Virus record (IMG/VR): IMGVR_UViG_3300010883_000210
Span: 1 to 33,229 of that record
Length of the DNA: 33,229 nt
Direction: 5' to 3' (one strand)
Source of the DNA: a virus
Shown here: piece by piece, positions 4,021 to 31,386 of the stretch
How the letters are laid out: each line of letters starts with the position of its first letter
Numbering within the stretch: position 1 is the stretch's first letter
Made by a program: the position numbers and the translations under genes
Notes under the pieces: model-generated
Seen by the model: only the letters and a program-made list of their open reading frames with translations
What the model was told of the DNA's origin: nothing
The model's database searches: none

Positions 4021-7000
4021 ATGGCAGAAGGTAATAGAGTATTTGTTTCTCCAGGGGTATATACCTCTGAGAAAGATTTAACGTTTGTAGCACAAAGTGT
4101 CGGTGTTACTACATTAGGTGTGGTGGGAGAAACCCTAAAAGGCCCAGCATTTGAACCTATATACATCCAATCATGGGATGATTACGTTACAAGATTTGGG
4201 GGAACGTCACCAGTAACATATGTTGACTCACAAATCCCAAAGTATGAAACAGGGTATATAGCGAAAGAATACCTTAGTCAATCCAACCAACTATTTGTGT
4301 CGAGAGTATTGGGTATTAGTGGTTATGATGCTGGACCATCTTGGTCTGTTAAAACTTTTGGTGCTTTAGACCCTGTTAGTTTTACAGGTACTGGTGTTAC
4401 ATCAGCTATAACTAGTGGGACTACAGTCCTACCATTCTTTATACCAATGACTGGTGCGGGTGGGACAGTAGGGACCTCAGCTTTTACTAATGATAACACA
4501 CTTAATCCTGTAGACTTTTTTAGTACTTTACCAGCAGCACTTGCTACACATTTTAATTACGAAATAGTAACACTAAATAATGGAAATACAACAACACTAA
4601 ATGATATGTTCTTAGCTTGGTTTCAAGCTAGTATAGTTTATTCTGGAGAGTCAGGGTTTCCAAACTTGAGTGGTATCTCCCCAGCACCTACAGCTTGGTA
4701 TGATGGGACAATATATCAATTTGGGTGTGTAACACCAGGGATGACAGAAATAGCAACAGCAACGACTTTTGCTTACCCAGTATCGGGTACGGGGTCAACA
4801 GTAGTTTATAACCAATTAGGTAGTGTTTGTGAAGACGCTTTATCAAACCCACAAGATAACTACCTTAATGATGCTTGGTACTATGGTTTATTTGACGCTA
4901 TTAACACTGATTGTTGTACCGGAACCACATACAGTGGAGCAAGTTTCCAACTATACAATGGAACATCAGGTGTGATTACAGAAGTAACAGGAACCTCAAG
5001 TGGGGGAACTCTTATTTATTCAGGTAGTGTCGCAATTGACTATGTTACATGGTCTGGTGTTTCCGCAATACCAGATTATGACGGATTAGTTGTCCTAACA
5101 TTAAGGTCTAGGGGATTGAGTAGTAAAGCTAGTGGAGGTCCAAACTATGATATAAGTGCAAATACAGTGGCTTTTGATTGTACTGGAAACTATTATAAGG
5201 TGTTGGAAAACCCATTCGCATCTTTTGGTATTAGTGCTAATACTAATAATGGTACGGTATATACGTTTAAAACATCTATGGATAACACTTCACAAGATTA
5301 TGTATCTAGAGTATTCGGTAGAAGTCCATTTGATAAGAAACGTGAAGAGGTACCTTTATTTGTTGAGGAAACGTACCCTAACCTACTAACTAATATTTGG
5401 AAAAAAGGTAAGGTAAGAGGACTACAGTGTTGTCTTACATACTTACCTTCAGCAAGAGAAGTTACCAACACCAACACCATAGCTTGGAACATGAGGGAAT
5501 GGGCAACACCAGAAACACCATATATAGTTTCTGAGTTACAAGGTAGTGATGTATATAGGTTATTTAAGTGTATCTCTATTTCTGACGGAAATTCAGCAAA
5601 TAGAGAGATTAAGGTATCAATAATAAACTTATCTTTTGAAAGGGGGGAGTTTGACATACTGGTAAGAGACTTCTGGGATACAGACGCAAACCCTAATGTT
5701 CTAGAGAAATATACAAGATGTAGTTTAAACCCACAACTAGTATCCTTTGTTGGTAGGAAAATAGGTACATCAACTGGTGAGTTTGAATTAAAATCTAAAT
5801 TTATTATGTTATTCCTAGCAGACGGTGTAATGGACGGTGTCTTTACCGGGTCATTGCCAGCTGGATTTGAAGGGTATCGATTCAGACCATACGCTGAATG
5901 TGCACGTAGTCCTTTCCCTATCTATAAAACAAAATATTATAAACCAGGTGATGTGGTTTTTGACCCACCATTTGGTTCTGGAGCAGCAAATAATCGTACA
6001 ATAAGTGGTGGTGATAAGGTGTCTAAAGTATATTTAGGTATTTCTGATAGTATTGGAGCTGGTTACGACACAGACTTCTTTGACTATAAGGGAGCTATCC
6101 CACCAACAATATGTACGGGAGTTGTAGGTGGTGATTGGAGTGTAATCACAAAAGGATTCCATATGGATTCCGGAGCTACTGTAGTTGTAGGTGGTAGTGG
6201 TTCATATACAGATTGGTCGGCAACCTCTTTAAACGGACAACAAATATTTGATTGTGGTGTATCCCAATTTAATCATGAACCAACACTTAGTGGGGAAGCT
6301 TACAAATCATTAAGGTCTCGTAAATTTACTGTAGCACCTTACGGTGGGTTTGATGGGTGGGACATTTATAGGAAAACAAGGTCTAACACTGATGACTATA
6401 GAATGGGTCTATCAGGGTTCTTAGCCGGAGCATGTACAAGCACAGAATTCCCAACGGCATCAGGAGCTGGTACTTTTAAGAAGATTAGTACTAGTGAAGC
6501 TAACACAGATTATTTTGCGTACCTTAGAGGTATTAATAATTTTAGTAACCCAGAAGATATAGATATTAATGTATTTACAACACCTGGTTTAGACTATGTT
6601 GATAATTTAGGGTTGGTGAATGAGGCTATAGATATGGTAGAGACAGATAGAGCAGATTCCTTATATGTTGTAACTACACCAGACTACAATATGTTTGTAC
6701 CAAATACAACTGACCAAACCAATATGATTGGGCCAGACAGCGCTGTAGATAATGTTGAGGACTCAATGATAGATTCTAACTATACAGCTACATACTATCC
6801 TTGGGTACAAGTTAGAGACGCAGCAAATAATAAACAAATCTGGATACCACCAACAGCTGATGTTATGAGAAATATCGCTTTGACTGACAATATAGCATTT
6901 CCATGGTTTGCTTCAGCTGGTTATACTAGAGGTGTTGTAAACGCAATAAAAGCTAGAAAGAAATTAACATTAGATGAGAGAGACACATTATATGTTGGTA

Positions 7001-7395
7001 GAATTAACCCTATCGCGACATTTAGTGATGTTGGTCCTATAATTTGGGGTAATAAAACTCTTCAGATAAGAGAATCGGCTCTGGATAGAATAAATGTTAG
7101 AAGACTGTTGTTACAAACTAGAAAATTAATCTCAGCTGTAGCTGTAAGGTTAATCTTTGAACAAAATGATGAAATAGTTAGACAACAATTCCTAGACCTA
7201 GTAAACCCAATACTCGATTCTATTAGGAGAGATAGAGGATTAACAGACTTTAGGGTTGTACTTTCTAATGACCCAGCAGAAATTGATAGAAATGAAATGA
7301 ACGGTAAAATATATATTAAACCAACCAGAGCGTTAGAATATATATTTGTTGAATTCCTAATTACCCCTACTGGTGCTTCTTTTGAAGACGTCTAG
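4021..7395 (+). CDS. Contractile tail sheath protein (gp18-like, expanded)
   Basis: This is the subunit of the contractile tail sheath. The N-terminus (FVSPGVYTSEKDLTFVAQSVGVTTLGVVGETLKGPAFEPIYIQSWDDYVTRFGG) is the standard sheath opening: SPGVY followed by the G-x-x-x-KGP strand and the W-x-x-F/Y-x-x-x-FG segment. The C-terminal 120 residues are also characteristic, with TLQIRESALDRINVRRLLLQTRK, a long LIFEQND helix and a final VEFLITPTGASFEDV. At 1124 aa it is much longer than T4 gp18 (659 aa). Most of the excess lies between about residues 115 and 420 and around 640-800, rich in Gly, Ser and Thr, as expected for surface-exposed decoration domains. No start competes with ATG 4021. The leader lacks a Shine-Dalgarno sequence. 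It stands alone after its own promoter-like motif, consistent with high late expression. Confidence 0.93.
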   Translation: MAEGNRVFVSPGVYTSEKDLTFVAQSVGVTTLGVVGETLKGPAFEPIYIQSWDDYVTRFGGTSPVTYVDSQIPKYETGYIAKEYLSQSNQLFVSRVLGISGYDAGPSWSVKTFGALDPVSFTGTGVTSAITSGTTVLPFFIPMTGAGGTVGTSAFTNDNTLNPVDFFSTLPAALATHFNYEIVTLNNGNTTTLNDMFLAWFQASIVYSGESGFPNLSGISPAPTAWYDGTIYQFGCVTPGMTEIATATTFAYPVSGTGSTVVYNQLGSVCEDALSNPQDNYLNDAWYYGLFDAINTDCCTGTTYSGASFQLYNGTSGVITEVTGTSSGGTLIYSGSVAIDYVTWSGVSAIPDYDGLVVLTLRSRGLSSKASGGPNYDISANTVAFDCTGNYYKVLENPFASFGISANTNNGTVYTFKTSMDNTSQDYVSRVFGRSPFDKKREEVPLFVEETYPNLLTNIWKKGKVRGLQCCLTYLPSAREVTNTNTIAWNMREWATPETPYIVSELQGSDVYRLFKCISISDGNSANREIKVSIINLSFERGEFDILVRDFWDTDANPNVLEKYTRCSLNPQLVSFVGRKIGTSTGEFELKSKFIMLFLADGVMDGVFTGSLPAGFEGYRFRPYAECARSPFPIYKTKYYKPGDVVFDPPFGSGAANNRTISGGDKVSKVYLGISDSIGAGYDTDFFDYKGAIPPTICTGVVGGDWSVITKGFHMDSGATVVVGGSGSYTDWSATSLNGQQIFDCGVSQFNHEPTLSGEAYKSLRSRKFTVAPYGGFDGWDIYRKTRSNTDDYRMGLSGFLAGACTSTEFPTASGAGTFKKISTSEANTDYFAYLRGINNFSNPEDIDINVFTTPGLDYVDNLGLVNEAIDMVETDRADSLYVVTTPDYNMFVPNTTDQTNMIGPDSAVDNVEDSMIDSNYTATYYPWVQVRDAANNKQIWIPPTADVMRNIALTDNIAFPWFASAGYTRGVVNAIKARKKLTLDERDTLYVGRINPIATFSDVGPIIWGNKTLQIRESALDRINVRRLLLQTRKLISAVAVRLIFEQNDEIVRQQFLDLVNPILDSIRRDRGLTDFRVVLSNDPAEIDRNEMNGKIYIKPTRALEYIFVEFLITPTGASFEDV

Positions 7396-12275: not shown

Positions 12276-12764
12276 ATGGCCGATTTATTAATGAAAATGC
12301 CGATACCGTACGAACCAAAGAAAAAGAATAGGTTTATTCTAAGATTTGACTCGTCATTAGGTATTAATGAGTGGTATGTAGAGAGTACATCAAGACCACA
12401 AATAACTATAAATCCAGTTGAGGTACCATTTTTAAATACTTCCACATATGTGGCTGGTAGATTTACTTGGGGTACGATTAATGTAACGTTTAGAGACCCT
12501 ATTGGTCCTTCAGCAGCACAAGCATTAATGGAGTGGGTTAGATTACATTCAGAATCAGTAACGGGTAGAATGGGTTACGCTGCTGGATACAAAAAGAATA
12601 TAGACTTAGAAATGCTAGACCCAACAGGTGTTGTGGTGGAAAAATGGATATTACAAGGGTGTTTCTTAACTGACGTTAACTTTAATGACTTAGGTTATAG
12701 TGATGACGGTCTTGCAAATATAGCGGCTACATTACGTCCAGACCGTTGTATTTTAGTTTACTAA
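12276..12764 (+). CDS. Tail tube protein (gp19-like)
   Basis: This 162-aa protein is the subunit of the inner tail tube. Length and pattern match T4 gp19 (163 aa): KNRFILRFDSSLGINEWYVESTSRPQITINPVEVPFLN near the N-terminus, then the strand GRFTWGTINVTFRDPIGPSAAQALMEWVRLHS, then LEMLDPTGVVVEKWILQGCFLTDVNFNDLGYSDDGLANIAATLRPDRCIL at the end. The P-x-x-x-x-x-x-x-E-V/I-PFLN, W-x-x-x-x-V-x-FRD-P and W-x-L-x-GCF elements are hallmarks of contractile-tail tubes. It is expressed as a single gene between a TATTTATA motif and a strong terminator, fitting a protein needed in many copies. T4 also keeps the sheath and tube genes together, but here they are separated by about 4.9 kb. Confidence 0.93.
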   Translation: MADLLMKMPIPYEPKKKNRFILRFDSSLGINEWYVESTSRPQITINPVEVPFLNTSTYVAGRFTWGTINVTFRDPIGPSAAQALMEWVRLHSESVTGRMGYAAGYKKNIDLEMLDPTGVVVEKWILQGCFLTDVNFNDLGYSDDGLANIAATLRPDRCILVY

Positions 12765-12984: not shown

Positions 12985-13746
12985 ATGCAAGAACAATTAA
13001 CAGACCCAGCAGCAGATTCTATATTACCTTATGATGTAGTAACTCTACCATCACAAGGAATATTTTATAAGGATAGAAAAAAATCAGTAAAGGTATCTTA
13101 TTTAAACGCATCTGACGAAAATTTATTAGCTTCACCATCATTAACAGAGACAGGTAAGTTAATCGACACATTATTATCTAGAAAAATTCTAGATAAAGAT
13201 ATATTATTACAAGATATGCCAGATTGTGATAAAGAAGCTATTCTAATATTCTTACGTAATACCGCGTTTGGTACAGAATATAATGTCACGGTAATTGACA
13301 GAAAGACTGAAAAGGAATTCACCACAAAAATTGACCTATCAGTTTTAAGAACAAAAGATATTACGGTAGAGTTAGATGAAAATAACGAATTCGAACACTT
13401 CCTAGAAATTTCAAAAAAGAAAGTAAGGTTAAGTTTTATATCCCCAGCTGACGAACAAGAGTTAAAAAAAATAGACGAGACACACAAAAACGACCCAATT
13501 AGTCCATATATGACTAAACAATTAGCAAAAATGCTTAAGGAGGTTGATGGTGTTAGAGACCCTATGAGTATTCACCAGTTTATACAAACAATGCCTATTA
13601 GAGATTCACAAATAATAAGAAAAGTGGTCCGTGACAATACACCAGAATTGGACTTAACAGTTAGTGTGACAACTCCGTCAAACGAGACACAACAACTGAG
13701 AATTAATTTCGGTGTAGAGTTTTTTCGTCCTTTCTACGGCATATAG
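12985..13746 (+). CDS. Baseplate hub assembly protein (gp26-like), frame-0 product
   Basis: This 253-aa protein matches the T4 base plate protein family that contains gp26 (208 aa in T4). The N-terminal part has DVVTLPSQGIFYKDRKKSVKVSYLNASDENLL, the LPS-x-G-x-x-Y and E-x-x-L signature. A middle helix follows (LIDTLLSRKILDKDILLQDMPDCDKEAILIFLRNTAFG), then the DDT-like core and a final LRINFGVEFFRPFYG. Members of this family typically end near an FFxP motif, as here. The gene lies directly upstream of the tape measure gene. A second frame, open from 13718 to 13915, continues with a plausible protein sequence, so a longer fusion made by frameshifting at the T6 run 13720-13725 is likely (next entry). 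Confidence 0.75.
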   Translation: MQEQLTDPAADSILPYDVVTLPSQGIFYKDRKKSVKVSYLNASDENLLASPSLTETGKLIDTLLSRKILDKDILLQDMPDCDKEAILIFLRNTAFGTEYNVTVIDRKTEKEFTTKIDLSVLRTKDITVELDENNEFEHFLEISKKKVRLSFISPADEQELKKIDETHKNDPISPYMTKQLAKMLKEVDGVRDPMSIHQFIQTMPIRDSQIIRKVVRDNTPELDLTVSVTTPSNETQQLRINFGVEFFRPFYGI

Positions 13747-13915
13747 GAATGCCCTATTGCAAGAGTTTTATTATCTTATGCAACACTTACATATAGCTTG
13801 GTCCGACCTATTAATAATGCCAACCTTCGAAAGAAGATTCTACGTAGATTTTTTATCTGAGGAGTTTGCCAAAAAAAGAGAGGCAATTGAAAAACAAAAT
13901 AGCCAACGTAAATAA
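13718..13915 (+). CDS. Frameshift extension or small ORF downstream of gp26-like gene
   Basis: This frame is +1 (equivalently -2) relative to the gp26-like gene. It is open from 13718, overlaps that gene by 29 nt and ends at TAA 13913-13915. The product includes AYRNALLQEFYYLMQHLHIAWSDLL and MPTFERRFYVDFLSEEFAKKRE. The W-x-D-L-x-x-MP-x-x-x-RR-F/Y-Y pattern is like the short domain following tail assembly chaperones and gp26-type proteins in other phages. No good start is available: TTG at 13757 or ATG at 13778 (45 aa), the latter cutting into the domain, and neither has an upstream ribosome-binding site. A shift at TTT TTT C would give a fusion of about 309 residues. Independent translation from 13778 or a sequence error are alternatives. 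Confidence 0.6.
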   Translation, partial: SFFVLSTAYRNALLQEFYYLMQHLHIAWSDLLIMPTFERRFYVDFLSEEFAKKREAIEKQNSQRK

Positions 13916-13946: not shown

Positions 13947-16115
13947 ATGTTTAAATTAATCAAACAACTTATTGTTGAAGCTATTTTATCTGGTGCAAAA
14001 CCATATATCGCTTCACACCCAGAATTAGGTGTCCCATTAGGGGTGTTTAATATGAAAGATGAACCAACCTATAAAGATAGGGTAAAATCTATTAAGAGGT
14101 ATGGTAAAACAGGAAATCCCACATCACATAAATTAGCGTTATTACTTGGGGTAGTTAACCCTATACCATCTTACGCTATCACACTAAAAGACTCAAGAGG
14201 TAACGACGTGACCATGTCTCAGTTATTTGCTGATTCAGATTTTAAAGCACAACTTACCAGTGCCGGGTATTCAAAAACAGCTGCGTATGACCCAGCATCC
14301 TCAAATCAATCCACAGGAGCCTTCAAAAAATTTGAAACATTACTAAAATCTAGAATTCCTAGAGGTCAAATGAGTGCTGGTGAAGTACAAGGTATGATTA
14401 AAATGTTGAGAGAGACCGTAACACTACAGGTTAATGTAGATGGTAAAATGAATACCATCCTAGATAAATTAGCTTTAGAAGACAGTTTAAGGGTAGATAT
14501 ATCAAAATCGTTAGGAATGTCTAACGCACAACTATTTGACACCATCAGTGAATTAAATACGGCAGCTCAATCCGCTAAAGATTTTGGGATAACAGCGGAC
14601 GAACTATATGAGACATTTAAAAAGATATCACAAGAAGTTGGTAGAAATCTTAGGATACCACCACAGGTAGTTGAAAGAGCGTCACTATTAACTAAGACCT
14701 TAGACGGTTTTGATGCTGGAAATTTTGCTGCAGCTTTTGATACCGTAGGTTATAGTTTAGATGAGGCAATTGGTGGTGTGGAGGATACAGATAACGCGAT
14801 GTCCGATATTTTAGCTACGGGTAGAGGTTTTGGTGTGGTTATGGAAAGTTTTTTAGGTAATGTAAGTAAAGAACTTAAATTAGTTAATACATATGGTTTT
14901 GATAAAGGTATTGAAGGTTTAGCTAGTATGGTTGCGAGAAGTCAGTCATTAGGGTTAGAGATGAGTACTGTAACTTCACTAGCTGATAAATTCTTTGACC
15001 CTGAAGGAGCGATAGATTTTGCAGCACAAATGCAAGTAATTGGTGGAGCTGTAGGTGATTTAGGTGACCCATTTAAATTAATGTATATGGCTACTAATGA
15101 CCTAGAAGGACTACAAGATGCTATTGTGGATGTTGCCGCAGCCTCTGTAACATTTGATAAAACTAAAAATAAATTTATAATATCACCACAGGAAAGAAGA
15201 AAGTTAAAGGATATGGCGGAAGCCATGGGGATGAGTTACCAAGACTTAGCCGATACAGCTGTAAAATCCGCAAGAAGAGCACAAGTATTCTCCGAATTAG
15301 AATATGGAACCAACATGAGTGATACTGATAAGGAATTAATAGCTTCTATGGCTCAAATAGGTAAACATGGGACAGCTCAAGTTAAAATACCAGGGATAGA
15401 AGAAATGGTGGATGTAGCTAATGTAACGGATGACCAAATGAAATTATTAAGAAAGGACGGTATGACAGATAAAGATATATACCAACAACAACTTACTGTT
15501 TCAGAAAAAGCAAATCAATATTTAGCTGCTATGGACGCTGGAGTAAGAGTTATGGTTAGAAAAATGGGTGGAAACGCAGGTGATATAGAACAAGAAGGAT
15601 TTTCACAACAAATGGCTGGTGGTATGAATTTATTAGATGAAGACCAAATGAAAGACCTTATGAGTGGTGACCCAGCAAAAATGGGTGTGATGATTGGTAA
15701 GATGCAAGCAAATATGATGGACAGTACCTACAAGAATTTTGTAAAAGCACAAAAAGCTATGACAGGTAAAAATGCAAGTGTAACAGATTCGGGTGGTACA
15801 GTAACACATTACGATTTTGTAAAACCAGCGGGAGCTTCTAGCTCAGAGACACTATCTTTTGCCAAAGGAGATTTAGTTATTGGGGGTACCGATTTAGGGG
15901 TTAGTGTGGGAAGTAGAGTAAGTGAAATGTCTAAACCAACAGGTAACCAATCAGGAGGGTCGGGAGGGTCATCAGGACAAATACTACATGCTGGTACAAT
16001 AACATTGCAAGGTGGTGGCACAACAACCGATATTGATATTAATAAGTTTTTAACTAATTTATCTTCCGGTGATTGGGGTACGATAGCACAGAAAGTAAGT
16101 AATGCTAGAGGTTAA
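13947..16115 (+). CDS. Tail tape measure protein
   Basis: This 722-aa protein is the probable ruler that fixes tail length inside the tube. It is a long, mostly helical protein rich in Ala, Met, Gly and Lys, with many repeats of hydrophobic heptads (LGMSNAQLFDTISELNTAAQSAKDFGITADELYETFKKISQEVGR; GKIEGLASM-like segments; FAAQMQVIGGAVGDLGDPFKLMYMATNDLEGLQDAIVDVAAAS). A Gly/Ser-rich stretch (about residues 665-685) precedes a short C-terminal domain. It follows the gp26-like gene and its frameshift extension, the position expected after tail assembly chaperones, and precedes baseplate genes. At about 1.5 Å per residue, the usual scaling, the tail would be near 108 nm. The alternative is another large virion protein, but the context favours tape measure. 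Confidence 0.7.
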   Translation: MFKLIKQLIVEAILSGAKPYIASHPELGVPLGVFNMKDEPTYKDRVKSIKRYGKTGNPTSHKLALLLGVVNPIPSYAITLKDSRGNDVTMSQLFADSDFKAQLTSAGYSKTAAYDPASSNQSTGAFKKFETLLKSRIPRGQMSAGEVQGMIKMLRETVTLQVNVDGKMNTILDKLALEDSLRVDISKSLGMSNAQLFDTISELNTAAQSAKDFGITADELYETFKKISQEVGRNLRIPPQVVERASLLTKTLDGFDAGNFAAAFDTVGYSLDEAIGGVEDTDNAMSDILATGRGFGVVMESFLGNVSKELKLVNTYGFDKGIEGLASMVARSQSLGLEMSTVTSLADKFFDPEGAIDFAAQMQVIGGAVGDLGDPFKLMYMATNDLEGLQDAIVDVAAASVTFDKTKNKFIISPQERRKLKDMAEAMGMSYQDLADTAVKSARRAQVFSELEYGTNMSDTDKELIASMAQIGKHGTAQVKIPGIEEMVDVANVTDDQMKLLRKDGMTDKDIYQQQLTVSEKANQYLAAMDAGVRVMVRKMGGNAGDIEQEGFSQQMAGGMNLLDEDQMKDLMSGDPAKMGVMIGKMQANMMDSTYKNFVKAQKAMTGKNASVTDSGGTVTHYDFVKPAGASSSETLSFAKGDLVIGGTDLGVSVGSRVSEMSKPTGNQSGGSGGSSGQILHAGTITLQGGGTTTDIDINKFLTNLSSGDWGTIAQKVSNARG

Positions 16116-20214: not shown

Positions 20215-20532
20215 ATGAGTTATTATAATAGATATAGTGAGTTTGTAGTTAATGGTGATTTTATAATGGTCCCACATATAAGTCTGGTTAGAAAATCCAG
20301 TGACAGAAGAATAGTTTATAAAGTAGGTCAAACACGATTAGATAAATTATCACAACAATTCTACGACTCACCCTACTATGGATGGCTCATTATGCAAGCA
20401 AACCCCCAATACGGTGGGCAGGAATGGAATATACCCGACTCAACTATTATAACAGTACCATTTCCATTAATGCAATCACTAGAGGAATATAAATCTAACT
20501 TAGACCAATACTTCCTCTATTATGGCAGATAA
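20215..20532 (+). CDS. Baseplate wedge protein, gp53-like
   Basis: This 105-aa protein contains the core expected of T4 gp53 and the related LysM-like wedge proteins: RRIVYKVGQTRLDKLSQQFYDSPYYGWLIMQANPQYGG, in which a basic strand leads to a helix ending in an IYG/FYD-x-P-x-x-x-W-x-x-M-x-x-N motif. T4 gp53 has YYIKGS...LANAIYGNPQLYWVLLMCN at the same place. It ends in IPDSTIITVPFPLMQSLEEYKSNLDQYF. It is shorter than T4 gp53 (196 aa), so only the core is kept. In T4 this protein is a wedge component. The last 11 bases overlap the start of the giant hub gene (ATGGCAGATAA), suggesting translational coupling. Confidence 0.6.
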   Translation: MSYYNRYSEFVVNGDFIMVPHISLVRKSSDRRIVYKVGQTRLDKLSQQFYDSPYYGWLIMQANPQYGGQEWNIPDSTIITVPFPLMQSLEEYKSNLDQYFLYYGR

Positions 20533-23500
20533 ATTAAACTCTGGAGATATTGCAGTTACTCAGGTTGGTAACAATGTAGTTGTTATCGACCCAAATAAGG
20601 TTGTAGTTAACGGCCAAACTAAAGATAGGGTAGTTAATGCTGAGGATTTGATTATGTATGCTAATTTAACCGCAAACATTTCACCTAGAAGTAAATTAAT
20701 AAAAGGTGAAGGTGGTAGTGGTACAGAAGTTATTATAGATATATATGCTGGTAACTTAAATTTTTTAAAACCAGAAGGTAAAGATTTTTTAGATTCAGAC
20801 TGGACCGAAGCTTTTACAAATCCAGATGTTAATAAACAGATAAGAACGGTAGATGAGGCAGGTTCTACCATATCTAAAAGAATAGAAAATCAAACAGACT
20901 TTCAGGGGTTTGGGATAACCTCAATTTCGATAAAAATAAGTGCCTCATTCATACCAGCAGTAACAATTAATTTTACCGACATTAGAGGGAAAACTTTATT
21001 TGAACAAGCAAGGACTAACACCCCCTATACAGCTTTTTTTCATATGCCATATCCAGTCTTTATGTTATCACTAAAAGGGTTCTATGGGAAAGCGGTACAA
21101 TACCAACTAACATTACATAAATTTGTATCTAGGTTTGACCCAGCCTCTGGTGACTATCTAGTAACATGTGACTTCAAAGGAAATCATATAGCTTTATTAA
21201 GGGATGTTAACATGCATCAAGCTATAACCGCACCATACATGTACCCTACAGCAATAAATGATAGTACTGGTGGGGTTAGTTGGACTAAGGGTATGCAAGT
21301 TTTAAATGATGTATATAAGTTATATATGGATAAAGGGTTAATAGCGGACGATTTCCCAACACTCACAATAGTCCAATTAATAGAAAAAGTAAAAGGTATA
21401 GATAACGATTTGAGTCGGGTGTTTGGTGAAGCCAACCTATCACTGACTTCAGATAAATTAGAATATTTAAAAACACTGGATAAATTCAAGCAAGCAGTGA
21501 TGGGTACTGAGGGATGGGTAAACACCTACTTAGATAATAATGGAAAACGTAACATTAAAGTAAAATTACCAGCTACTAGTGAGGAGACCACCGGTAAAAC
21601 CATAACTACTATTTGTTTACCATTAAAAGGTATTAAAGCCGCTAGTGAAATAACGGACGCATCAAAACAAAAAGAAGCTAAAGAAGGTATAAGTGAAAAA
21701 GCGGAAACAGAACTAAATAGTGTTGTCGCAAAATATGTAAAACTTTTACAACAAAACCCCACATTCCGAGTTGATAGTAAAATAAAGAATGGTAAATATG
21801 CGGTCGCCACAGAGTTTTTTAATGCTGGGGTAAATCAATTTAAGAAAAATCAACTTACCGGTGCACAAACAATAGACAATACGATTGCTTTATTACCACA
21901 AGAATATAGTCCTTATTTTTGTTTTGATGGGGGCGTGGACTCATTTATGTACCAATGGACTAAAACAAAAAAAATATTTGACGGCAAAGCTAAACAGATG
22001 GAGGAGGATATGAGCGACGAGTTAAATCAAGCTTTAGAAGCGGAAATAGGTTTTAAACCTACCATAAGAAATGTTTTTGCTGTAATTCTGGCTGGTGCCG
22101 ATACTTTTTTAAGGTTACTAGACGATGTACACACAAATGCATTTGCGGAAAGAAAAAATAAAAAAAGATTAGAAGTAGCCACCGGGTCTAATGATATACC
22201 ACAGACAAATTCAGAAGATAGTAAAATTGCATTTCCATGGCCTAAATACTATATAACAAAAGAGGTATCCGAATGCAAAACTTCCTCGATACTAACTTAT
22301 ATAGGTTCGGAAGATGTTATGGATGTTTTAGATAGTGGAAATAAAAAAGTTTGGCCTGAAGTGGAGTTTGTTGAAGAATATACTAAAAGTACTAATTATA
22401 AATTTTCTTCATTTATGGCTCCAACCACAAATGACGGACTACTGAAAAATTTCACACCTATAAATAATATATTAGATTACCCACCAATAGACTCACCATA
22501 TAGTTCTTTAGACAATGTAGACGTTTGGTTTGAAATACTAGATAGAGCTCAATGTAGTATATTATATGGTAGTCTTTTAACAAGACATTCGGGGTACGCT
22601 AACATAACCACATTACCTAAAGAGGTTGGTGAGGCTATACTGGGTGAGTTAGCCTCATATGAAGGAAGAAATTTATATAACCAGATTAAAAAATTCACAT
22701 CAACAACACAAATATTTAGAGACATTAATAATCCGGTTGAATATATACACACCCTACTAAAAGAGGCAGCACCAGAAAGATATCAACTTTACCTATGGGG
22801 TGGTGTGGTTACAGGTGGGTTAGTAGGGCAATCAACATTCGGTCTACCAAAAAAAATGAATATAGATATTTTAGGTGAACAATGGAAACTTAATGATAAA
22901 GCACTTAAGATAACTAAAAAAAATGGATTTTTTGATATAGCACCACTAATATTTGGTAGTTGGCAAGCCGCTAATATGGCAAACGGGAGCTCAAATGTGG
23001 TTTCTGGTCTTGACAAGTTTTTTAGTATACACAATAATTTAACCTATAATGTTATGGGGAATAATATGTTGACAGAAACAATCAATACATTATATTTCAC
23101 CACACTAGGTACTAAAATAATTAATGAGTCTAATATTGACATAGAGGTGTTCCTCTTAGCAGCCTCACGATACTTTAAAAGGAACGAACTAAGTAACCCA
23201 AATGCTGTTGACGAATTTTATGGTGATATTATGGGTGATGGTCCGGGTGCACTAAATAATAAAAAATTAATAACAGAAGGTGAGATTGTATTAAACCCCA
23301 CACAATCTGGAATAGCTCCTAATGTGTTACCTATGGTTATGGATAACGCAAAAAATAGGTTAACCTCCATGATGAATACACCATATTTTATCAATGCTTT
23401 ACTGGACGGGGTAAATAAAGAAAAATTAAATAACCCAATACCATACAAGAAAGCCGCGTACCTTTTCCTAAACTCCTTACCACTACCAACATTTAGAGAG

Positions 23501-26500
23501 AAAGCTATGTTTGACACACAGGGACAATCTGAAAGTGGGTTACAGTTTGGTGACTACATATCACAACTTTTTAACCAAATGCCAGCGTTACACGAAGTAC
23601 CTTTATCATTATTGTTAAAAATAGGTTCAGTTTGGTGGAGATATAAAGATAGTGTAAGGTCTACAACTGGTGTGGTTGACCCTTTAACTGAAATTTGGGG
23701 TGATGTTGGTACAGTATCTACAATTTTTGGGGCAACTGGACCACAATATGTGTATGATGAGGTTGGGGGTAGTTTGTCTGCCCCATTCACTTATGTTGAA
23801 GGGGCGATAACATACGCTTATCAGTCACAACAAGCAGTTAATAATATTATGCAGGTAGGGGTATACCCAAACCTAATAGGGGCTATCCACTATATAACTA
23901 CAAATTCTACCTCGTATATCCCAGGTACTACAGCATTAAATGCTATGATTCCAGCAGCACCACTAACTATACATAATAATACAGATATATCATTTAACGC
24001 AACCAGTGACGGTACAACCGTACAGTTTTATGATGTATACCTAGAATCCACCAATATTACAAATGAAACCGAGAAGGTTAGCTTTACGAACATAGAAAGT
24101 CCATCTAAATATTATGTTTTATTTCCGTCATCTGGAGGACTTATGCAAACGGACGCTAATACATATGGAACACCTTTATATAGTAATACAGCATTACATA
24201 ATGGAGCGTGTAGATTCTTTTGGGGGATGTCTAATTATGGTTATTTTGTTAATAGGGGTGTATACAAACCTACAGCAGCGGAATATTTTAAATTAGTTGA
24301 TGTAAATAAAGACGAACAAACAGATTGGCATTTTAAAGAAGATTCATCTTATTCTAATATAGAGGAATTACGTGGTGTTTTTAACACAGAACAGTTAGAT
24401 GGGTTTGAACAGTTATTTGAAATATTTAGTAGTCCAGAAGGTAGTGGGGATGTACCATGGACCATGAAACAAGCCATAAAAGATTTCTGTGTTATTGAAG
24501 AGAGTTGGGTAGAGCAAGGAGATTTTAGTGAGAACTTTGGTACAACATTGGGAATCAGTCAATTAAAAAAGGTTAGTGTACTTCTTAATGAATTTTTACA
24601 AACAACTATACAGTACTCACACAAAACGACTACAAATCTAAATAACATATATAATAACGGTTCACTACTTCAAGACATAACATTATTTAAGACAGGAGGG
24701 CCTAATAAGGTTCAACGGTCTATGTCAAAACAGAAGGATATAGAATACGCGATAAGAGAGGAATTCGGAACCTATACCTCAAGCACAACAACAATTCCTG
24801 GCTCTGGTGGATTTTTTGTAGGTAACCCAGTAGAGTATCAGGATATGAGAATATGGGTTGGAGAGTATTTTTCACAGGGGTCAGCTCAATTTAGTATATT
24901 AGTACCCACAGATGATACTAATCCATTATATAGGTTCTTTATTGAGATTAATTATCCTAACGAAGGAATTGCTTTTAATAGTACTAACATACAAAGGTTA
25001 GCACCATTAATTAGATTATATGGTTCGTATTGTTCAGAACAAGGTTACGTTACATCACGTAAGTTTATTAATATCTTATGGGATAAATTAGGTGTATTAG
25101 ATACAAAACAAGAAGACTATATTACCGAACTAATTAAAGCCACACAAAAAAATATTAAAGATAACCCAGCAGAAATTCTTAATATAACCACACCACCAGC
25201 AACAGATGATAGGTCAGAGATAAAAGGAGACAACTTAAAGTTAAGTCTGTACAATAGTTTTAAAAAATTAAATGACAGATGGATAGCTGGGATACCAACA
25301 CTAAATAGTCAGACACTATTTGAGAAGTTTTTATTTTTGGATAAAGCAAATCGAGATATTGGAAGTGAGGCAGTTATAGACATATGGGACATAATATTAT
25401 TAGACTCCCCCTTCACCAAGAAAAATTCCAGAACCCTAACTCAGAGTGTAGATAGTTTTTTAAGTATTATATTAGCTAATAATTATTTTAATTTTATACC
25501 ATTACCATCATATATTAATTTCTTTAATTTAGAAAAAAAAGGGTTAAACACACAAAAACAAGCAAACGCCCTGTTTGGAACGTTCCAAAACGTAGACTAC
25601 CTAGACTCTAGGCCAGCTTTCCTGTGTCAGTATATTGGAAATAGTTCAACACAACTTAATGTTAAAACCAAAGATAATGGGTATACTGACGACTCATATA
25701 ATATGGGTAGAGCAACCCCAAACCCACTTAATGGTCCATCATGTGGTAATAAAGACCTATCTAATAAGGTAATGGGGTTTAATGTTGATTTTGGGATACC
25801 CAACCAGAACATTTTTGAATCCGTAACACTAGACCAAGCAGAGTATCAAAATACAGAAGAGAGTTATAAAATATTACAAGCAATGGCAGATTCTGGTGGT
25901 GGAGGAAGCACATCGATGGCATCACTATCTTTATTTAATGTATACGCGAGCCGTTCTTACACAGCAAAAATTACAATGATGGGGAATGTTACAATACAAC
26001 CAACACAATATTTTCAGTTAAGGTACTTACCTATGTTTAATGGCCCATATATGATTGTTAGTGTTGAACATAGTATAAGTCCTAATAATATAGAAACAAC
26101 ATTTGAAGGGGTTAGACAACCCTTAGCAGAATTACCAAGCATTACTGATTTGGTACAGAGAGTTAACTCCAATCTTTATCAGGCCGCAGAAAAAAGATTA
26201 AAGGAACTACCAATAGATTTGTATTATGATAATTTAAGTGCCACCCCAATGCAGTTAGCTCGTGGAGTAGCTGACAACCTATACATAGATAAAACCAGTA
26301 ACTCAACAACCCTAGCGGTCGACAATGTAATTTGGCATGATGTGTGGGATTTTCTTGAATGTTCACCAGGAGAGGATGACCCAGAAGTAACTCATTTAGG
26401 TATCGATATACTACCAAAGTCAACAATGATAGCAAAAGCATCAGGAACCGATGGTATAAAGATTTATGCTGCGATAAAGGGTAAAGTCATCAACCAAAAA

Positions 26501-26866
26501 AGAAATTGTAAACCATTACAAAAAGACGATAATTGTGGTAGTTATGGAAATTATGTAGAAATATATACCACAGTAAATAGTAATCCTGAGGATGACGGCA
26601 CATCCTACTATAAAACTAAATATGCATTTCTAAGAGAAAATGAACCAATAATCAGTCCTCCATTTATAACGGACGACGAAGCGGGAGGTCCTTGGAAGGC
26701 TGGTACCGCAACTAATCCTGGTAAAGTGATAGGTATTATGGGAAATAGTGGATTGTCTAAAGATGTACATTTACATTTTGAAATTATAAGGGGGGTAAAA
26801 AGAAACGGAAAGATAGTAGAACAATATTTATTGCCAGAAAATTTCTTACCTATATTCACAAGTTAA
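20522..26866 (+). CDS. Giant baseplate hub protein with C-terminal M23 peptidase
   Basis: At 2114 aa this is the largest protein in the window. Residues 1-240 contain hub-like strands (SISIKISASFIPAVTINFTDIRGKTLFEQ; PYPVFMLSLKGFYGKAVQYQLTLHKFVSRFDPASGDYLVTCDFKG). Residues about 1810-1880 (ARSYTAKITMMGNVTIQPTQYFQL, then FNGPYMIVSVEHSISPNNIETTFEGVR) look like gp27/late-control-D hub barrels. The C-terminus is an M23 zinc metallopeptidase with all expected residues: H1958-x3-D1962 (HLGID), GNYVEIY, GNSG and H2083-x-H2085 (HLHFE). M23 enzymes cut peptide cross-links in peptidoglycan, so this is likely the tail-tip lysin that opens the wall during infection, in place of T4's gp5 lysozyme. The middle 1500 residues are unassigned. 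Confidence 0.85.
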   Translation: MADKLNSGDIAVTQVGNNVVVIDPNKVVVNGQTKDRVVNAEDLIMYANLTANISPRSKLIKGEGGSGTEVIIDIYAGNLNFLKPEGKDFLDSDWTEAFTNPDVNKQIRTVDEAGSTISKRIENQTDFQGFGITSISIKISASFIPAVTINFTDIRGKTLFEQARTNTPYTAFFHMPYPVFMLSLKGFYGKAVQYQLTLHKFVSRFDPASGDYLVTCDFKGNHIALLRDVNMHQAITAPYMYPTAINDSTGGVSWTKGMQVLNDVYKLYMDKGLIADDFPTLTIVQLIEKVKGIDNDLSRVFGEANLSLTSDKLEYLKTLDKFKQAVMGTEGWVNTYLDNNGKRNIKVKLPATSEETTGKTITTICLPLKGIKAASEITDASKQKEAKEGISEKAETELNSVVAKYVKLLQQNPTFRVDSKIKNGKYAVATEFFNAGVNQFKKNQLTGAQTIDNTIALLPQEYSPYFCFDGGVDSFMYQWTKTKKIFDGKAKQMEEDMSDELNQALEAEIGFKPTIRNVFAVILAGADTFLRLLDDVHTNAFAERKNKKRLEVATGSNDIPQTNSEDSKIAFPWPKYYITKEVSECKTSSILTYIGSEDVMDVLDSGNKKVWPEVEFVEEYTKSTNYKFSSFMAPTTNDGLLKNFTPINNILDYPPIDSPYSSLDNVDVWFEILDRAQCSILYGSLLTRHSGYANITTLPKEVGEAILGELASYEGRNLYNQIKKFTSTTQIFRDINNPVEYIHTLLKEAAPERYQLYLWGGVVTGGLVGQSTFGLPKKMNIDILGEQWKLNDKALKITKKNGFFDIAPLIFGSWQAANMANGSSNVVSGLDKFFSIHNNLTYNVMGNNMLTETINTLYFTTLGTKIINESNIDIEVFLLAASRYFKRNELSNPNAVDEFYGDIMGDGPGALNNKKLITEGEIVLNPTQSGIAPNVLPMVMDNAKNRLTSMMNTPYFINALLDGVNKEKLNNPIPYKKAAYLFLNSLPLPTFREKAMFDTQGQSESGLQFGDYISQLFNQMPALHEVPLSLLLKIGSVWWRYKDSVRSTTGVVDPLTEIWGDVGTVSTIFGATGPQYVYDEVGGSLSAPFTYVEGAITYAYQSQQAVNNIMQVGVYPNLIGAIHYITTNSTSYIPGTTALNAMIPAAPLTIHNNTDISFNATSDGTTVQFYDVYLESTNITNETEKVSFTNIESPSKYYVLFPSSGGLMQTDANTYGTPLYSNTALHNGACRFFWGMSNYGYFVNRGVYKPTAAEYFKLVDVNKDEQTDWHFKEDSSYSNIEELRGVFNTEQLDGFEQLFEIFSSPEGSGDVPWTMKQAIKDFCVIEESWVEQGDFSENFGTTLGISQLKKVSVLLNEFLQTTIQYSHKTTTNLNNIYNNGSLLQDITLFKTGGPNKVQRSMSKQKDIEYAIREEFGTYTSSTTTIPGSGGFFVGNPVEYQDMRIWVGEYFSQGSAQFSILVPTDDTNPLYRFFIEINYPNEGIAFNSTNIQRLAPLIRLYGSYCSEQGYVTSRKFINILWDKLGVLDTKQEDYITELIKATQKNIKDNPAEILNITTPPATDDRSEIKGDNLKLSLYNSFKKLNDRWIAGIPTLNSQTLFEKFLFLDKANRDIGSEAVIDIWDIILLDSPFTKKNSRTLTQSVDSFLSIILANNYFNFIPLPSYINFFNLEKKGLNTQKQANALFGTFQNVDYLDSRPAFLCQYIGNSSTQLNVKTKDNGYTDDSYNMGRATPNPLNGPSCGNKDLSNKVMGFNVDFGIPNQNIFESVTLDQAEYQNTEESYKILQAMADSGGGGSTSMASLSLFNVYASRSYTAKITMMGNVTIQPTQYFQLRYLPMFNGPYMIVSVEHSISPNNIETTFEGVRQPLAELPSITDLVQRVNSNLYQAAEKRLKELPIDLYYDNLSATPMQLARGVADNLYIDKTSNSTTLAVDNVIWHDVWDFLECSPGEDDPEVTHLGIDILPKSTMIAKASGTDGIKIYAAIKGKVINQKRNCKPLQKDDNCGSYGNYVEIYTTVNSNPEDDGTSYYKTKYAFLRENEPIISPPFITDDEAGGPWKAGTATNPGKVIGIMGNSGLSKDVHLHFEIIRGVKRNGKIVEQYLLPENFLPIFTS

Positions 26867-28032: not shown

Positions 28033-28899
28033 ATGAGTAATAGTTTAGACGCGGTTTTAGCTCAATACGAGAAAAACAAACAAAGTGGGGGTTCCACAAA
28101 ACCACAAATGACATCAGAAGAAAGAATGAAACAATATCTTTCCATAATGTTACCAAAAGGAACAAAGCAAGGAGAAAAAAGAATTAGAATAGTACCGACA
28201 CAAGACGGTAGTTCACCTTTTAAAGAAGTATTTTTCCACAATATACAAGTTCAAGGAAGATGGCAAAAACTTTATGACCCAGGAAAAGACTCAGCAGGTA
28301 AACCATCCGGGGAAAGAAGTCCACTAAATGAAGTTGAAGAAGCTTTAAGATTAGCTGGTGATGCACAATCAAAAGAATTAGCACGTTCTTATCGTTCACA
28401 AAAATTTTACATTGTAAAGGTTGTAGATAGAGATAATGAGGAGGATGGCGTTAAATTTTGGAGATTTAAACATAATTGGAAAGGAAATGGCCCAATAGAT
28501 AAGATTATACCTATTTGGAGAAATAAAGGAGATGTTACAGACATCAATGAAGGGAGAGATTTAATATTAATACTTCAAACCCTTCCATTACCAGGAGGTA
28601 GAGGTGAATACACAACAGTATCTTCAGTTATGTACGAAGACCCAGGTAAATTATCTGAAGACCAAACTCAAACAAAAGAGTGGACTGAAGACGAAAGAAC
28701 CTGGAAAGACGTATACTCACAAAAACCAATTGAGTACCTAGAAGCTATTTCTAAAGGTTTGGACCCAGTATGGGATTCAGAGTTAAAGAAATATGTTTAT
28801 GACGACCCTAACGCGGTAAAAAATACTACAGACACAACAGTTTTAGGTAGTACTGACCCACAAGCAAACGACCCACAATCCGAAGATTTACCATTTTAA
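28033..28899 (+). CDS. Single-stranded DNA-binding protein (gp32-like)
   Basis: This 288-aa protein is the likely replication/recombination SSB. The pattern follows T4 gp32: an N-terminal cooperative-binding region, the LPKGTKQGEKRIRIVP strand, SPFKEVFFHNIQVQG, KFYIVKVVDRDNEEDGVKFWRFKHNWK, and VTDINEGRDLILILQ. It contains no cysteine, so the gp32 zinc site (one His, three Cys) is absent; the equivalent stretch is about 65-95. The acidic C-terminus ends in SEDLPF, closely resembling the DDDIPF tip of bacterial SSB, which recruits partner proteins. An A/T-only leader precedes the gene, suggesting autoregulation. It is the first gene of the replication block, 10 bp before uvsX. Confidence 0.8.
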   Translation: MSNSLDAVLAQYEKNKQSGGSTKPQMTSEERMKQYLSIMLPKGTKQGEKRIRIVPTQDGSSPFKEVFFHNIQVQGRWQKLYDPGKDSAGKPSGERSPLNEVEEALRLAGDAQSKELARSYRSQKFYIVKVVDRDNEEDGVKFWRFKHNWKGNGPIDKIIPIWRNKGDVTDINEGRDLILILQTLPLPGGRGEYTTVSSVMYEDPGKLSEDQTQTKEWTEDERTWKDVYSQKPIEYLEAISKGLDPVWDSELKKYVYDDPNAVKNTTDTTVLGSTDPQANDPQSEDLPF

Positions 28900-28908
28900 T
28901 TAAAGATT

Positions 28909-29913
28909 ATGGCATTGAAAAAAAGAACATTTTCAGAACTGAAAGACAAGTTTTCAAAGAAAGCTAACTTTAAACCAGAAAGATTTTTTGATTTAGGGAA
29001 AGCTTTTCTTGATGCTACCGGATTACCAGGACCAGCAATGGGACATTTACAAATGTTTCTTGGTCATTCAGACACCGGTAAAACTACAGCTTTAATAAAG
29101 GCAGCGGTTGATGCACAAAATAAAGGAATTTTACCAGTATTGATTATTACCGAACAAAAATGGGGTTTTGAACATGCTAAACTTTTGGGTTTTGATTGTG
29201 AAGAAGTTGTAGACCAAACTACTGGTGAAATAGATTGGGATGGATTTTTTCTATTTAATAACGACTTTCAGTACATAGAACAAATTACTGACTACATAAA
29301 TGAATTATTAGACGCACAAGAGAAAGGTGAAATTGAGTATGATTTATTATTTATGTGGGACTCAGTTGGTTCAGTACCATGTAAAATGACTTTTGATGGG
29401 AAAGGGGGTAAAATGCATAACGCAGCAACCCTTGCTGATAAAATTGGTATGGGGCTAAACCAAAGAATAGGTAAATCAAGAAGACAAGATTCAAAATATA
29501 CAAACACACTAGTTGTGGTAAACCAACCATGGGTAGAATTACCAGATAACCCATTTGGACAACCAAAAATTAAGGCAAAAGGTGGAGAATCTTTATGGTT
29601 AAACTCTACTTTAGTTTTTAGGTTCGGGAACCAAAAAAATGCTGGTACAACAAATATTTCTGCTGTTAAAGATAAAAGAAAAGTAAAATTTGCCACTAGA
29701 ACAAAAATAACCATTATGAAAAATCACGTAAATGGTTTAGGTTATGAGGATGGTAAGATTTTAATAACACCACATGGATTTGTTTCAGGTAGAGAACCAG
29801 TAGAAGAGAAAAAATCAATTGAAAAATATAAACAAGAATACTCCACATTTTGGACTGACCAATTGGGGTCCGGTGGGGAATTCGACTTAAAAATAGAAAA
29901 AGAAAATGACTAA
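28909..29913 (+). CDS. uvsX: UvsX/RecA-like recombinase
   Basis: This 334-aa protein is a RecA-family strand-exchange ATPase. Walker A is GHSDTGKTT (52-60), Walker B YDLLFMWDS (144-152), and an LVVVNQPW segment with loop residues (ADKIGMGLNQRIGKSRRQD) lies between Walker B and the L2 region (NQPWVELPDNPFG). Length is close to T4 UvsX (391 aa) but with a shorter C-terminus. The order SSB-UvsX-FKBP-exonuclease-helicase makes this a recombination-dependent replication block. The N-terminus MALKKRTFSELKDKFSKK is the oligomerisation segment. It overlaps the FKBP gene by 8 nt (ATGACTAA), so the two are coupled. UvsX versus another phage RecA cannot be decided by eye, but a recombinase is secure. 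Confidence 0.85.
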   Translation: MALKKRTFSELKDKFSKKANFKPERFFDLGKAFLDATGLPGPAMGHLQMFLGHSDTGKTTALIKAAVDAQNKGILPVLIITEQKWGFEHAKLLGFDCEEVVDQTTGEIDWDGFFLFNNDFQYIEQITDYINELLDAQEKGEIEYDLLFMWDSVGSVPCKMTFDGKGGKMHNAATLADKIGMGLNQRIGKSRRQDSKYTNTLVVVNQPWVELPDNPFGQPKIKAKGGESLWLNSTLVFRFGNQKNAGTTNISAVKDKRKVKFATRTKITIMKNHVNGLGYEDGKILITPHGFVSGREPVEEKKSIEKYKQEYSTFWTDQLGSGGEFDLKIEKEND

Positions 29914-30340
29914 ATTAAAAACAGGAGACAAAGTAAAAATACATTATATCGGTACCCTTAAAGAAGGTGAAGTGTTTGATAGTTCTAGAGATAGAGAACA
30001 ACCATTAGAGTTTGTTATTGATGATGGTAACCTTATTAAAGGATTTAATGATTCAGTAAAAGAAATGGTAGTTGGTGATACTAAAAAAATATCTTTGGTA
30101 ACAGAAGAAGCGTACGGCAAGTATATCGATGAAGCTGTTATCGAAGTCCTAAAAAGTGAATTCCCACCAGAAATGAAATTTGAACTTAAAGGGTTTGTAC
30201 AAGGGCAAGATGACAAAAAAAGACCAATACAAGGACAGATAATAAAAATAGAGGAAGAAAAGATAACTCTAGATATGAACCATCCCCTAGCAGGTGAAGA
30301 TTTAAATTTTGAAATTGAATTGTTAGAAGTAGTAAAGTAA
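29906..30340 (+). CDS. SlyD-like FKBP peptidyl-prolyl isomerase
   Basis: This 144-aa protein is an FKBP-type peptidyl-prolyl cis-trans isomerase of the SlyD subtype. KTGDKVKIHYIGTLKEGEVFDSSRDREQPLEFVIDDGNLIKGFNDSVKEMVVGDTKKI is the FKBP core, interrupted by an IF (insert-in-flap) chaperone domain (about 70-120), then DMNHPLAGEDLNFEIELLEV closes the core. The NHPLAG-x-x-L-x-F motif is a SlyD hallmark. The His/Cys-rich nickel tail of E. coli SlyD is missing; the protein stops right after the core. Such an enzyme could help fold virion or replication proteins. It overlaps uvsX by 8 nt, so it is expressed with recombination genes. SlyD-like proteins are rare in phages as far as I know. Confidence 0.88.
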   Translation: MTKLKTGDKVKIHYIGTLKEGEVFDSSRDREQPLEFVIDDGNLIKGFNDSVKEMVVGDTKKISLVTEEAYGKYIDEAVIEVLKSEFPPEMKFELKGFVQGQDDKKRPIQGQIIKIEEEKITLDMNHPLAGEDLNFEIELLEVVK

Positions 30341-30363
30341 AAAATTGTTTAACCCTTTAAAAA
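30340..30363 (+). promoter_or_regulatory. Leader with GTTTAACCC motif before exonuclease
   Basis: AATTGTTTAACCCTTTAAAA lies just before the exonuclease start. GTTTAACCCTT is also present in the leader of the 10777 gene. TTTAACCCTTTAAA could form a small hairpin. No TATTTATA motif is present. An ATG at 30363 is out of frame with the exonuclease and stops after ten codons. Confidence 0.3.
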
Positions 30364-30369
30364 TGTGTT

Positions 30370-31386
30370 TTGATACGAACATTATTAGTTGACGGAAATT
30401 CCTTATTAAGTACAGGTTTTCATGGTATAAAAAATATGTATAATGGTACAGACCACATAGGTGGTTTGTATCATTTTTTAAACACCCTCAGAAAACACAT
30501 TGATGGTTATCTTATAACAAAGGTAGTTGTGTTTTGGGATGGCAAAGAAAATACCCACCCACGACTTAAACTATACCCAGATTACAAGTTAAATAGAAGA
30601 TTAAAAAATAAATCGGAAGATGAAGTACATTCCTATGCGCGCCAAAAATTACGGACACAAGAATACCTAGAAGAACTTTATGTTAGACAAGCTGTGTTCG
30701 ATAAATGTGAAGCGGACGATTGTCTAGGGTACTACTGTAAAAAATCCCGAGAGGAGGAAATTATTATTCTTACATCAGACAGAGACTTACTACAGTTAAT
30801 TTCTACTAATGTGTCGTTATATATATTATCCTTAGGTAAGTTATTTAAGTGTGGGGATAAGGTACCCTTAAATGGTATTAACATACCATCTACTAATGTT
30901 AGAGTAGTTAAAACTATTTGTGGTGATTCTTCAGATAATATATATGGTATAAAAATGGTTGGTATAAAATCATTAATAAAAATAAAACCTGAAATACTAG
31001 AAGAAGAAGTGACCCTAAAAGAGGTTATAGATACTATTAATTTAAAAGATAAACTTACCCAGAAAGAAAAAAACATAGTAGAAGGGATAACACAAAAACA
31101 ACAACCAACCATAGAAAATAAACACATACTGGATGTAAACTACAATATAATAGGTATAGGGAAACAATTTTTAACAGAAGAAGCAATAAACGGAGTAAGA
31201 GAATTATCAAAAGAAGCTATAGACCCGAAAGGTAGACATTGGAAAAATGCTTTGGACTTGATGATGTCAGATGGTTTACTTAATATTTTACCTAAGAAAG
31301 ATGATTCTTGGGTGGACTTTGTAAGGCCATTTTTAAGATTAACAAGAATAGAAAAAGATTTTTATAAAAATAAAAAAAATGATTAA
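30370..31386 (+). CDS. 5'-3' exonuclease (T4 RNase H/FEN-like)
   Basis: This 338-aa protein belongs to the 5'-nuclease (PIN/FEN) family to which T4 RNase H (305 aa) belongs. Acidic residues expected to bind two metal ions lie in LLVDGNSLLSTGFHG (Asp8), KVVVFWDGKENTHPRLKLYPDYKLNRR, CEADDCLGYYC (about 113-123), ILTSDRDLLQL and ICGDSSDNIYGIKMVGIKSL, the last being the helix-hairpin-helix region. It removes RNA primers or flaps during lagging-strand synthesis. The only in-frame start near the domain is a TTG at 30370: a TAA lies at 30358 and the two nearby ATG codons are out of frame. TTG starts are weak, so expression may be limited. It overlaps the next gene by 8 nt. Confidence 0.85.
   Translation: MIRTLLVDGNSLLSTGFHGIKNMYNGTDHIGGLYHFLNTLRKHIDGYLITKVVVFWDGKENTHPRLKLYPDYKLNRRLKNKSEDEVHSYARQKLRTQEYLEELYVRQAVFDKCEADDCLGYYCKKSREEEIIILTSDRDLLQLISTNVSLYILSLGKLFKCGDKVPLNGINIPSTNVRVVKTICGDSSDNIYGIKMVGIKSLIKIKPEILEEEVTLKEVIDTINLKDKLTQKEKNIVEGITQKQQPTIENKHILDVNYNIIGIGKQFLTEEAINGVRELSKEAIDPKGRHWKNALDLMMSDGLLNILPKKDDSWVDFVRPFLRLTRIEKDFYKNKKND

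Follow-up and report, generated by a model that had tools for sequence, protein, structure and literature searches.

The gp26-like gene of the virus IMGVR_UViG_3300010883_000210 very likely encodes two proteins, namely a short tail assembly chaperone that ends at the zero-frame stop codon and a long one produced by a +1 frameshift. The window analyzed here is the whole stretch of 33,229 nucleotides. Comparison with related loci shows that the arrangement is real and conserved and indicates that it is very probably a programmed +1 frameshift, and homology suggests that the two products correspond to the short/long pair of tail assembly chaperones (TAC-N/TAC-NC). The features of the locus are the following:

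4021-7395, tail sheath, in the same tail module as the tail tube gene and the gp26-like ORF
12276..12764, + strand, tail tube gene, upstream neighbor (PHROG 4542 tail tube, E=9.3e-32)
12985..13746, + strand, gp26-like gene, predicted short chaperone form (TAC-N, 253 aa; PHROG 150, Pfam T4_baseplate, AlphaFold model)
13711..13719, + strand, purine-rich stretch GGTGTAGAG, immediately 5' of the T run (Gly/Glu codon conservation in near relatives)
13720..13728, + strand, predicted shift site TTT TTT CGT (UUU_UUU_CGN; conserved in relatives)
13727..13915, + strand, +1 frame coding extension (TAC-C), starting from GTC and ending in LSEEFAKKREAIEKQNSQRK (PHROG 634, profile match, codon-position pattern, helical model)
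13744..13746, + strand, zero-frame stop codon TAG (read from the sequence)
13947..16115, + strand, likely tape measure gene, downstream neighbor, 722 aa (position; weak BLASTP match)

Gene order around the gp26-like locus

The gp26-like ORF ends in the zero frame with GAG TTT TTT CGT CCT TTC TAC GGC ATA TAG, the T6 run occupying positions 13720-13725. The +1 frame is open at 13718-13912 (65 codons, stop codon at 13913-13915) and overlaps the gp26-like ORF by 29 nt. A preliminary description of this DNA had placed the zero-frame stop at 13746, the second frame from 13718 and a T6 run in the overlap, and these coordinates proved exact on re-reading. It had also located the gene just before the tape measure gene, which agrees with our analysis: the gp26-like gene lies between the tail tube gene, directly upstream, and the likely tape measure gene downstream, the tape measure side being weakly supported in the window. 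The ORF at 13947-16115 had no significant family match in PHROG and Pfam scans, and it was weakly matched by BLASTP (E=2.7e-4) to the large protein that follows the extension in Microcystis phage Mel-JY01. A tape measure is annotated downstream in phages immuto and LIS04.

Other parts of the window were also inspected. Of the 1124-aa tail sheath, only the final ~300 residues are matched by known sheath families, leaving ~800 N-terminal residues unexplained. An ORF of 2114 aa at 20522-26866, in which a segment close to the C-terminus weakly resembles endolysin/peptidase, likely encodes a giant component of the baseplate or hub. After the tail module (28033-31386), genes for a gp32-like single-strand binding protein, a UvsX-like recombinase and a 5'-3' exonuclease were found, which is in keeping with a T4-like core.

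Conservation of the +1 arrangement

Viral contigs were searched with the gp26-like protein, which yielded 80 loci, and with the extension, which yielded 56. All 56 extension-bearing loci and 46 loci of gp26 relatives place the extension at +1, with an overlap across the stop codon of the gp26-like ORF. Flavobacterium phage immuto and Microcystis phage Mel-JY01, both isolates, have the arrangement seen in the window, and searches with their proteins provided a distant set of 160 further loci; the relation was +1 in 156/156 of those with enough flank, one locus from a WOR-3 bacterial chromosome included. Overall, 250 of 250 related loci (146 after near-duplicate removal) combined a T-rich junction with a second frame at +1 to the first. 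The idea of a sequencing or assembly error, or of a decaying pseudogene, has the homopolymer as its only point in favor. It is contradicted by the recurrence of the frame relation in ~250 loci and in the isolates Mel-JY01 and immuto, as well as by purifying selection on the extension, and we regard it as already refuted by comparison, its probability being practically nil. The T run is identical in independent contigs, which speaks against the miscounted T considered in the preliminary description.

The WOR-3 locus deserves a separate remark. It is found in the 2.85-Mb chromosome of this candidate division (L307; CP070664.1, 2761461-2772258), where a gp26-like gene lies between a tube-like gene and a long one resembling tape measures, and has GAG TTT TTT TGG CCT as its +1 site. 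Candidates for its origin are a T4-like prophage, a tail-like particle and a mis-binned phage.

Coding signal of the extension

A set of 65 non-redundant near relatives (<95% nucleotide identity) was used for closer comparison. Beyond the zero-frame stop, differences among 32 disjoint pairs fell on codon positions 1, 2 and 3 of the +1 frame at 15%, 8% and 29%, a pattern that points to a translated +1 frame and to purifying selection on the extension. The suggestion that a coherent C-terminal domain is reached by programmed frameshifting is thus borne out as regards the conserved frame and the coding pattern past the stop.

The extension could alternatively be a separate small gene, translated by coupled re-initiation from a start of its own (TTG at 13757, or the ATG within YYLM at 13778). 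An ATG is present at extension codon 18 in 29/65 near relatives and a TTG at codon 11 in 26/65, and the records of Mel-JY01 and immuto annotate small separate ORFs at the extension. However, no start codon position is common to the 65 near relatives, 26 of which have no ATG or GTG within the first 20 codons, while six contain no start-like codon at all within the first 30 extension codons; a distinct gene with a start codon shared among these relatives was looked for and not found. Furthermore, conservation of the extension (F-[FY]-x-L-S) already sets in at the shift site, 5' of every candidate start, and a separate gene would leave the invariance of TTT unaccounted for. We thus consider re-initiation very improbable and return to the frameshift.

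Conservation of the probable shift site

Across the 65 near relatives the first and second Phe codons (F1 and F2) are TTT in 65/65 and the following Arg codon is CGN in 65/65, with T, G, A or C at its third base. Elsewhere CGN is infrequent, accounting for 50 of the 322 Arg codons in the window and for 3/64 at another conserved Arg column. Further out, the TTT TTT CGN junction of the window's group gives way to TTT TTT TGG, TTT CTT TGG or TTT CTA TGG. In full, the sites of distant relatives read TTT TTT TGG CCT, TTT CTT TGG CCT, TTT CTA TGG CCT and TTT TTT TAY CCT, and CTT TTT TGG was seen once. Re-pairing from CTT to TTT at +1 is known from prfB.

The codons 3' of F1 are read in both frames, so their invariance is no proof of slippage, and part of the invariance of the site is explained by the bases after F1 being also coded in the +1 frame by the extension. 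The third base of F1, on the other hand, is free of constraint from the extension frame. Of the 146 representatives, 145 have TTT as their first Phe codon, one has CTT and none has TTC (a count that ignores phylogeny), and TTC makes up 23% of the other Phe codons in the same genes. With 32 disjoint pairs among the near relatives, the conservation of F1 has a P of only about 10^-2.2. The 8-mer TTTTTTCG occurs once in the window against 1.69 occurrences expected by chance; by itself it is unremarkable, and it is conservation that carries the evidence.

Direction of the proposed shift

At the window site TTT TTT CGT both +1 and -2 re-pairing are possible, and the preliminary description had left the shift as "+1/-2". 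In a Mu-like -2 shift the P-site tRNA-Phe would move back two bases within T6 (from 13723-25 to 13721-23), one extra Phe would be incorporated (EFFFVLS), and the predicted junction peptide would be INFGVEFFFVLSTAYR, that for +1 being INFGVEFFVLSTAYR. The T6 run offers perfect -2 re-pairing, which would also account for TTT rather than TTC at F1, and phage Mu does use -2 (PMC5009743). The relatives, however, do not fit such a shift. TTT CTT is found in 24/146 representatives and TTT CTA in 2/146, and these sites allow a cognate +1 slip and no cognate -2 one (-2 re-pairing is at best near-cognate in TTT CTT and nonexistent in TTT CTA). Similarly, AAC TTT CTA TTC in jumbo phage LR756508 and GAA TTC TTT CGT CCC in Streptococcus phage GXN1 permit a cognate +1 slip and no -2 pairing. 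The homopolymer needed for Mu-type re-pairing, present in the window, is hence absent from the 26/146 representatives with CTT or CTA, from LR756508 and from GXN1, yet the frame relation is unchanged. In addition, a +1 shift gives the same residue spacing over the junction throughout (GVEFFVLSTAY in the window and GVNFFGLSNEY, GVSFFGLTPEY and DANFYSLPSDY in relatives), whereas under -2 it would be off by one. A -2 shift is therefore improbable in our view. Given that a frameshift occurs, we are strongly confident that a +1 slip on either of the tandem UUU codons is the shared mechanism, since this is the direction in which loci with TTT CTT, TTT CTA or TTC TTT CGT re-pair exclusively, or at least far better. 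The frame register and the T6 site of the earlier proposal stand, and its -2 direction does not. An extension in the -1 frame at an X_XXY_YYZ heptamer, as in lambda, was absent from the clade, all members of which have it at +1.

The members without a T run also bear on transcriptional slippage, by which mRNAs one base shorter would be made at T6. Many members do have a run of T6-T7; T6 is short, though, and loci with TTT CTT, TTT CTA or TTC TTT CGT keep the arrangement, so that slippage of the polymerase is to be given even less credence than a separate gene. As regards which codon would slip in the +1 frameshift, LR756508 and the loci L157 and L179 require F1. GXN1 has UUU_CGU with TTC as the upstream Phe codon, and hence the second Phe codon must slip there; the window is compatible with either. 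The UUU_CGN type of site (P-site UUU, then C, with CGN as the A-site codon) is kept in 65/65 near relatives and in GXN1, and CGN is replaced by UGG or UAY in more distant relatives.

Under the mechanism that we propose, most ribosomes would terminate at 13744-13746 and release the 253-aa short form. In a minority, peptidyl-tRNA-Phe on one of the tandem UUU codons (13720-13725) would slip forward by one base, either from UUU to UUU (13720-22) or from UUU to the better-pairing UUC (13723-25), probably assisted by slow decoding of the codon that follows (CGN in the window, UGG in most relatives). Reading would then continue in the +1 frame to 13915 and give a 309-aa fusion containing INFGVEFFVLSTAYR. 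As for lambda gpG/gpGT, and as proposed for T4 gp26/gp51, the short and long forms may coat the tape measure protein, recruit tail tube subunits and leave.

Possible stimulators

No conserved RNA structure was detected around the site (consensus fold energy of -0.21 kcal/mol, zero compensatory pairs), and single-sequence folds at the site were unremarkable, with z-scores from -1.0 to +1.2. A stimulatory RNA structure was thus dropped as a candidate, there being no conserved or unusual fold. The purine stretch before the T run may be a Shine-Dalgarno-like stimulator. In many relatives it reads GGGGTGGAG or GGGGTTGAG; among the 65 near relatives its Gly codon is GGG in 43, with 2 synonymous differences against 11.3 expected, and its Glu codon is GAG in 53. 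This GGG..GAG conservation is absent in more distant relatives. Most genes in the window lack Shine-Dalgarno sequences.

Identity of the two products

The gp26-like part matches the baseplate hub family PHROG 150 (E=7.2e-10) and, over residues 30-247, Pfam T4_baseplate (31.0 bits, cut-off 24.5). The extension matches PHROG 634, baseplate hub assembly catalyst (E=0.0045), at the C-terminal profile positions 70-119. Its profile was also matched to the C-termini of cyanophage and T4 gp51 (79.8%, E=1.5e-5), a weak match whose position is consistent. These weak profile matches suggest a remote relationship between the extension and the C-terminal part of T4 gp51. The family profile did not match the single sequences of T4 gp26 and gp51, a comparison of single sequence with profile being too weak, and the relation of the two T4 proteins was settled by Pfam and PHROG scans: T4 gp51 carries T4_baseplate over residues 1-201 and PHROG 634 over 147-246, and T4 gp26 carries, of these two families, only T4_baseplate. 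The unshifted product would accordingly be the counterpart of gp26, and the shifted product that of gp51, since the N part belongs to T4_baseplate and the extension matches PHROG 634 and gp51 C-termini. This assignment is in line with published work (Vladimirov, Gautam and Davidson, 2022, Virology 566:9, as cited in PMC10885494 and PMC12846349), in which the tail assembly chaperones of T4 were identified as gp26 and gp51.

The two parts of the fused product were modelled separately. The N part was predicted by AlphaFold with a pLDDT of 89, and the extension was predicted as three helices with a pLDDT of 93.8. When the N-part model was compared with solved structures, three chains scored above background; one of them was 2ob9, a tail assembly chaperone of HK97 (Z 5.8 over 94 residues, rmsd 4.2 A; Foldseek E 2.5), with a score in the grey zone, so an HK97-like fold of the N part is suggestive only. 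A PDB sequence search with the profiles of the gp26-like part and the extension retrieved no relative.

Other solutions among T4-like phages

In cyanophages DSL-LC02 and Syn19 and in Aeromonas phage phiAS5, a gp51-type tail is encoded at -1, with GAT/AGT TTT TTC GCN stop as the site. This is the standard T_TTT_TTC heptamer, and it occupies the same place as the +1 site. As in the window, the last codons of the gp26-like gene overlap the gp51-type tail in another frame at a T-rich site; the frame, however, is -1 instead of +1. Poly-T -1 signals in T4-like phages have been described (PMC12846349). Frameshifting in T4-like gp26/gp51 is thus not itself new. The earlier view that a frameshift at gp26 would be noteworthy in such a phage has to be qualified, given the -1 heptamer in the two cyanophages and phiAS5 and the publication of the chaperone pair (Vladimirov et al., 2022, as cited in PMC10885494 and PMC12846349).

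In T4 the two forms are encoded by separate genes on opposite strands, in contrast to the single gene with a predicted frameshift in the window; what the two systems would share is a gp26-like domain in both forms (proposed TAC-N/TAC-NC) and a gp51-type C-terminal tail in the long one. The abstract of the Vladimirov work reportedly states that several T4-like groups have kept frameshifting and that the T4 group uses two genes. From the sequences it appears that T4-like phages employ two genes, a -1 shift or, as predicted for the window's clade, a +1 shift. Both T4 proteins have been listed as hub assembly chaperones (PMC3004832).

Two loci outside this scheme were also noted. In the 595-kb phage LR756511 (L141, 3663-3932) the extension is in the -1 frame and lies ~28 codons downstream of a T_TTT_TTC heptamer, so that shift site and conserved extension are far apart; it was considered as a counter-example to +1 and set aside as a -1 solution outside the clade. 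In Pseudomonas phage QdP_Psa3 (L140, 3600-3868) a distant gp26-like gene ends with GAC TTC TTT CCC TAA and has a +1 extension; CCC_TAA being a known type of +1 site, this locus may hold another shift solution.

Comparison with known frameshift systems

The preliminary description had compared the site with that of phage Mu (G6 followed by CGA), a parallel that turned out to be superficial. The closest motif is UUU_CGN, a +1 site in eukaryotic viruses (Firth et al., PMC3498833; Nibert et al., PMC5052127), used by influenza A PA-X and plant amalgaviruses. All four CGN codons are used there too, with no obvious stimulatory structure and with UUU to UUC re-pairing (PMC3498833, PMC5052127). These systems differ in that they involve eukaryotic ribosomes, RNA viruses and unrelated proteins, and in that the window's clade has tandem UUU codons and, in most of its distant members, UGG in place of CGN. 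A wider UUU_C class of +1 sites has been predicted (Firth et al., PMC3498833).

Regarding gene organization, lambda gpG/gpGT, P2 E/E' and Mu 41/42 likewise comprise a short and a frameshifted long form encoded between the tail tube and tape measure genes. The lambda and P2 sites are -1 and that of Mu is -2, and their sequence families differ from the one in the window. Tailed phages are known to use -1, -2 or +1 in their tail chaperone genes (Atkins et al., PMC5009743). A +1 shift is very likely used for the tail chaperone of the haloarchaeal myovirus HSTV-2 (PMC5009743), which, however, is an archaeal virus.

Implications for T4-like phages

As far as checked, the +1 variant on UUU_C/UUU_U, including UUU_CGN, in T4-like gp26 appears to be new. 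Isolated relatives of the clade have Flavobacterium, Microcystis, Streptococcus and Listeria as hosts. On balance we lean toward the view that a large, mostly uncultured T4-like clade uses a dedicated bacterial class of +1 site, tandem UUU followed by CGN or UGG, as a prokaryotic counterpart of the influenza/amalgavirus UUU_CGN, and that chaperones of one family have switched among -1, +1 and separate genes with both products kept.

In current annotation the extension is either missed, as in immuto, or labelled a separate hypothetical gene, as in Mel-JY01. If our reading is true, it would supply a conserved bacterial example for the poorly characterized UUU_C class of +1 sites and would support T4 gp51 being a long chaperone and not a "catalyst". 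The same chaperone pair would then be made by at least three routes, namely two genes in T4, a -1 slip in cyanophages and phiAS5 and a +1 slip in the window's clade, offering a natural series for asking why the ratio of short to long form matters.
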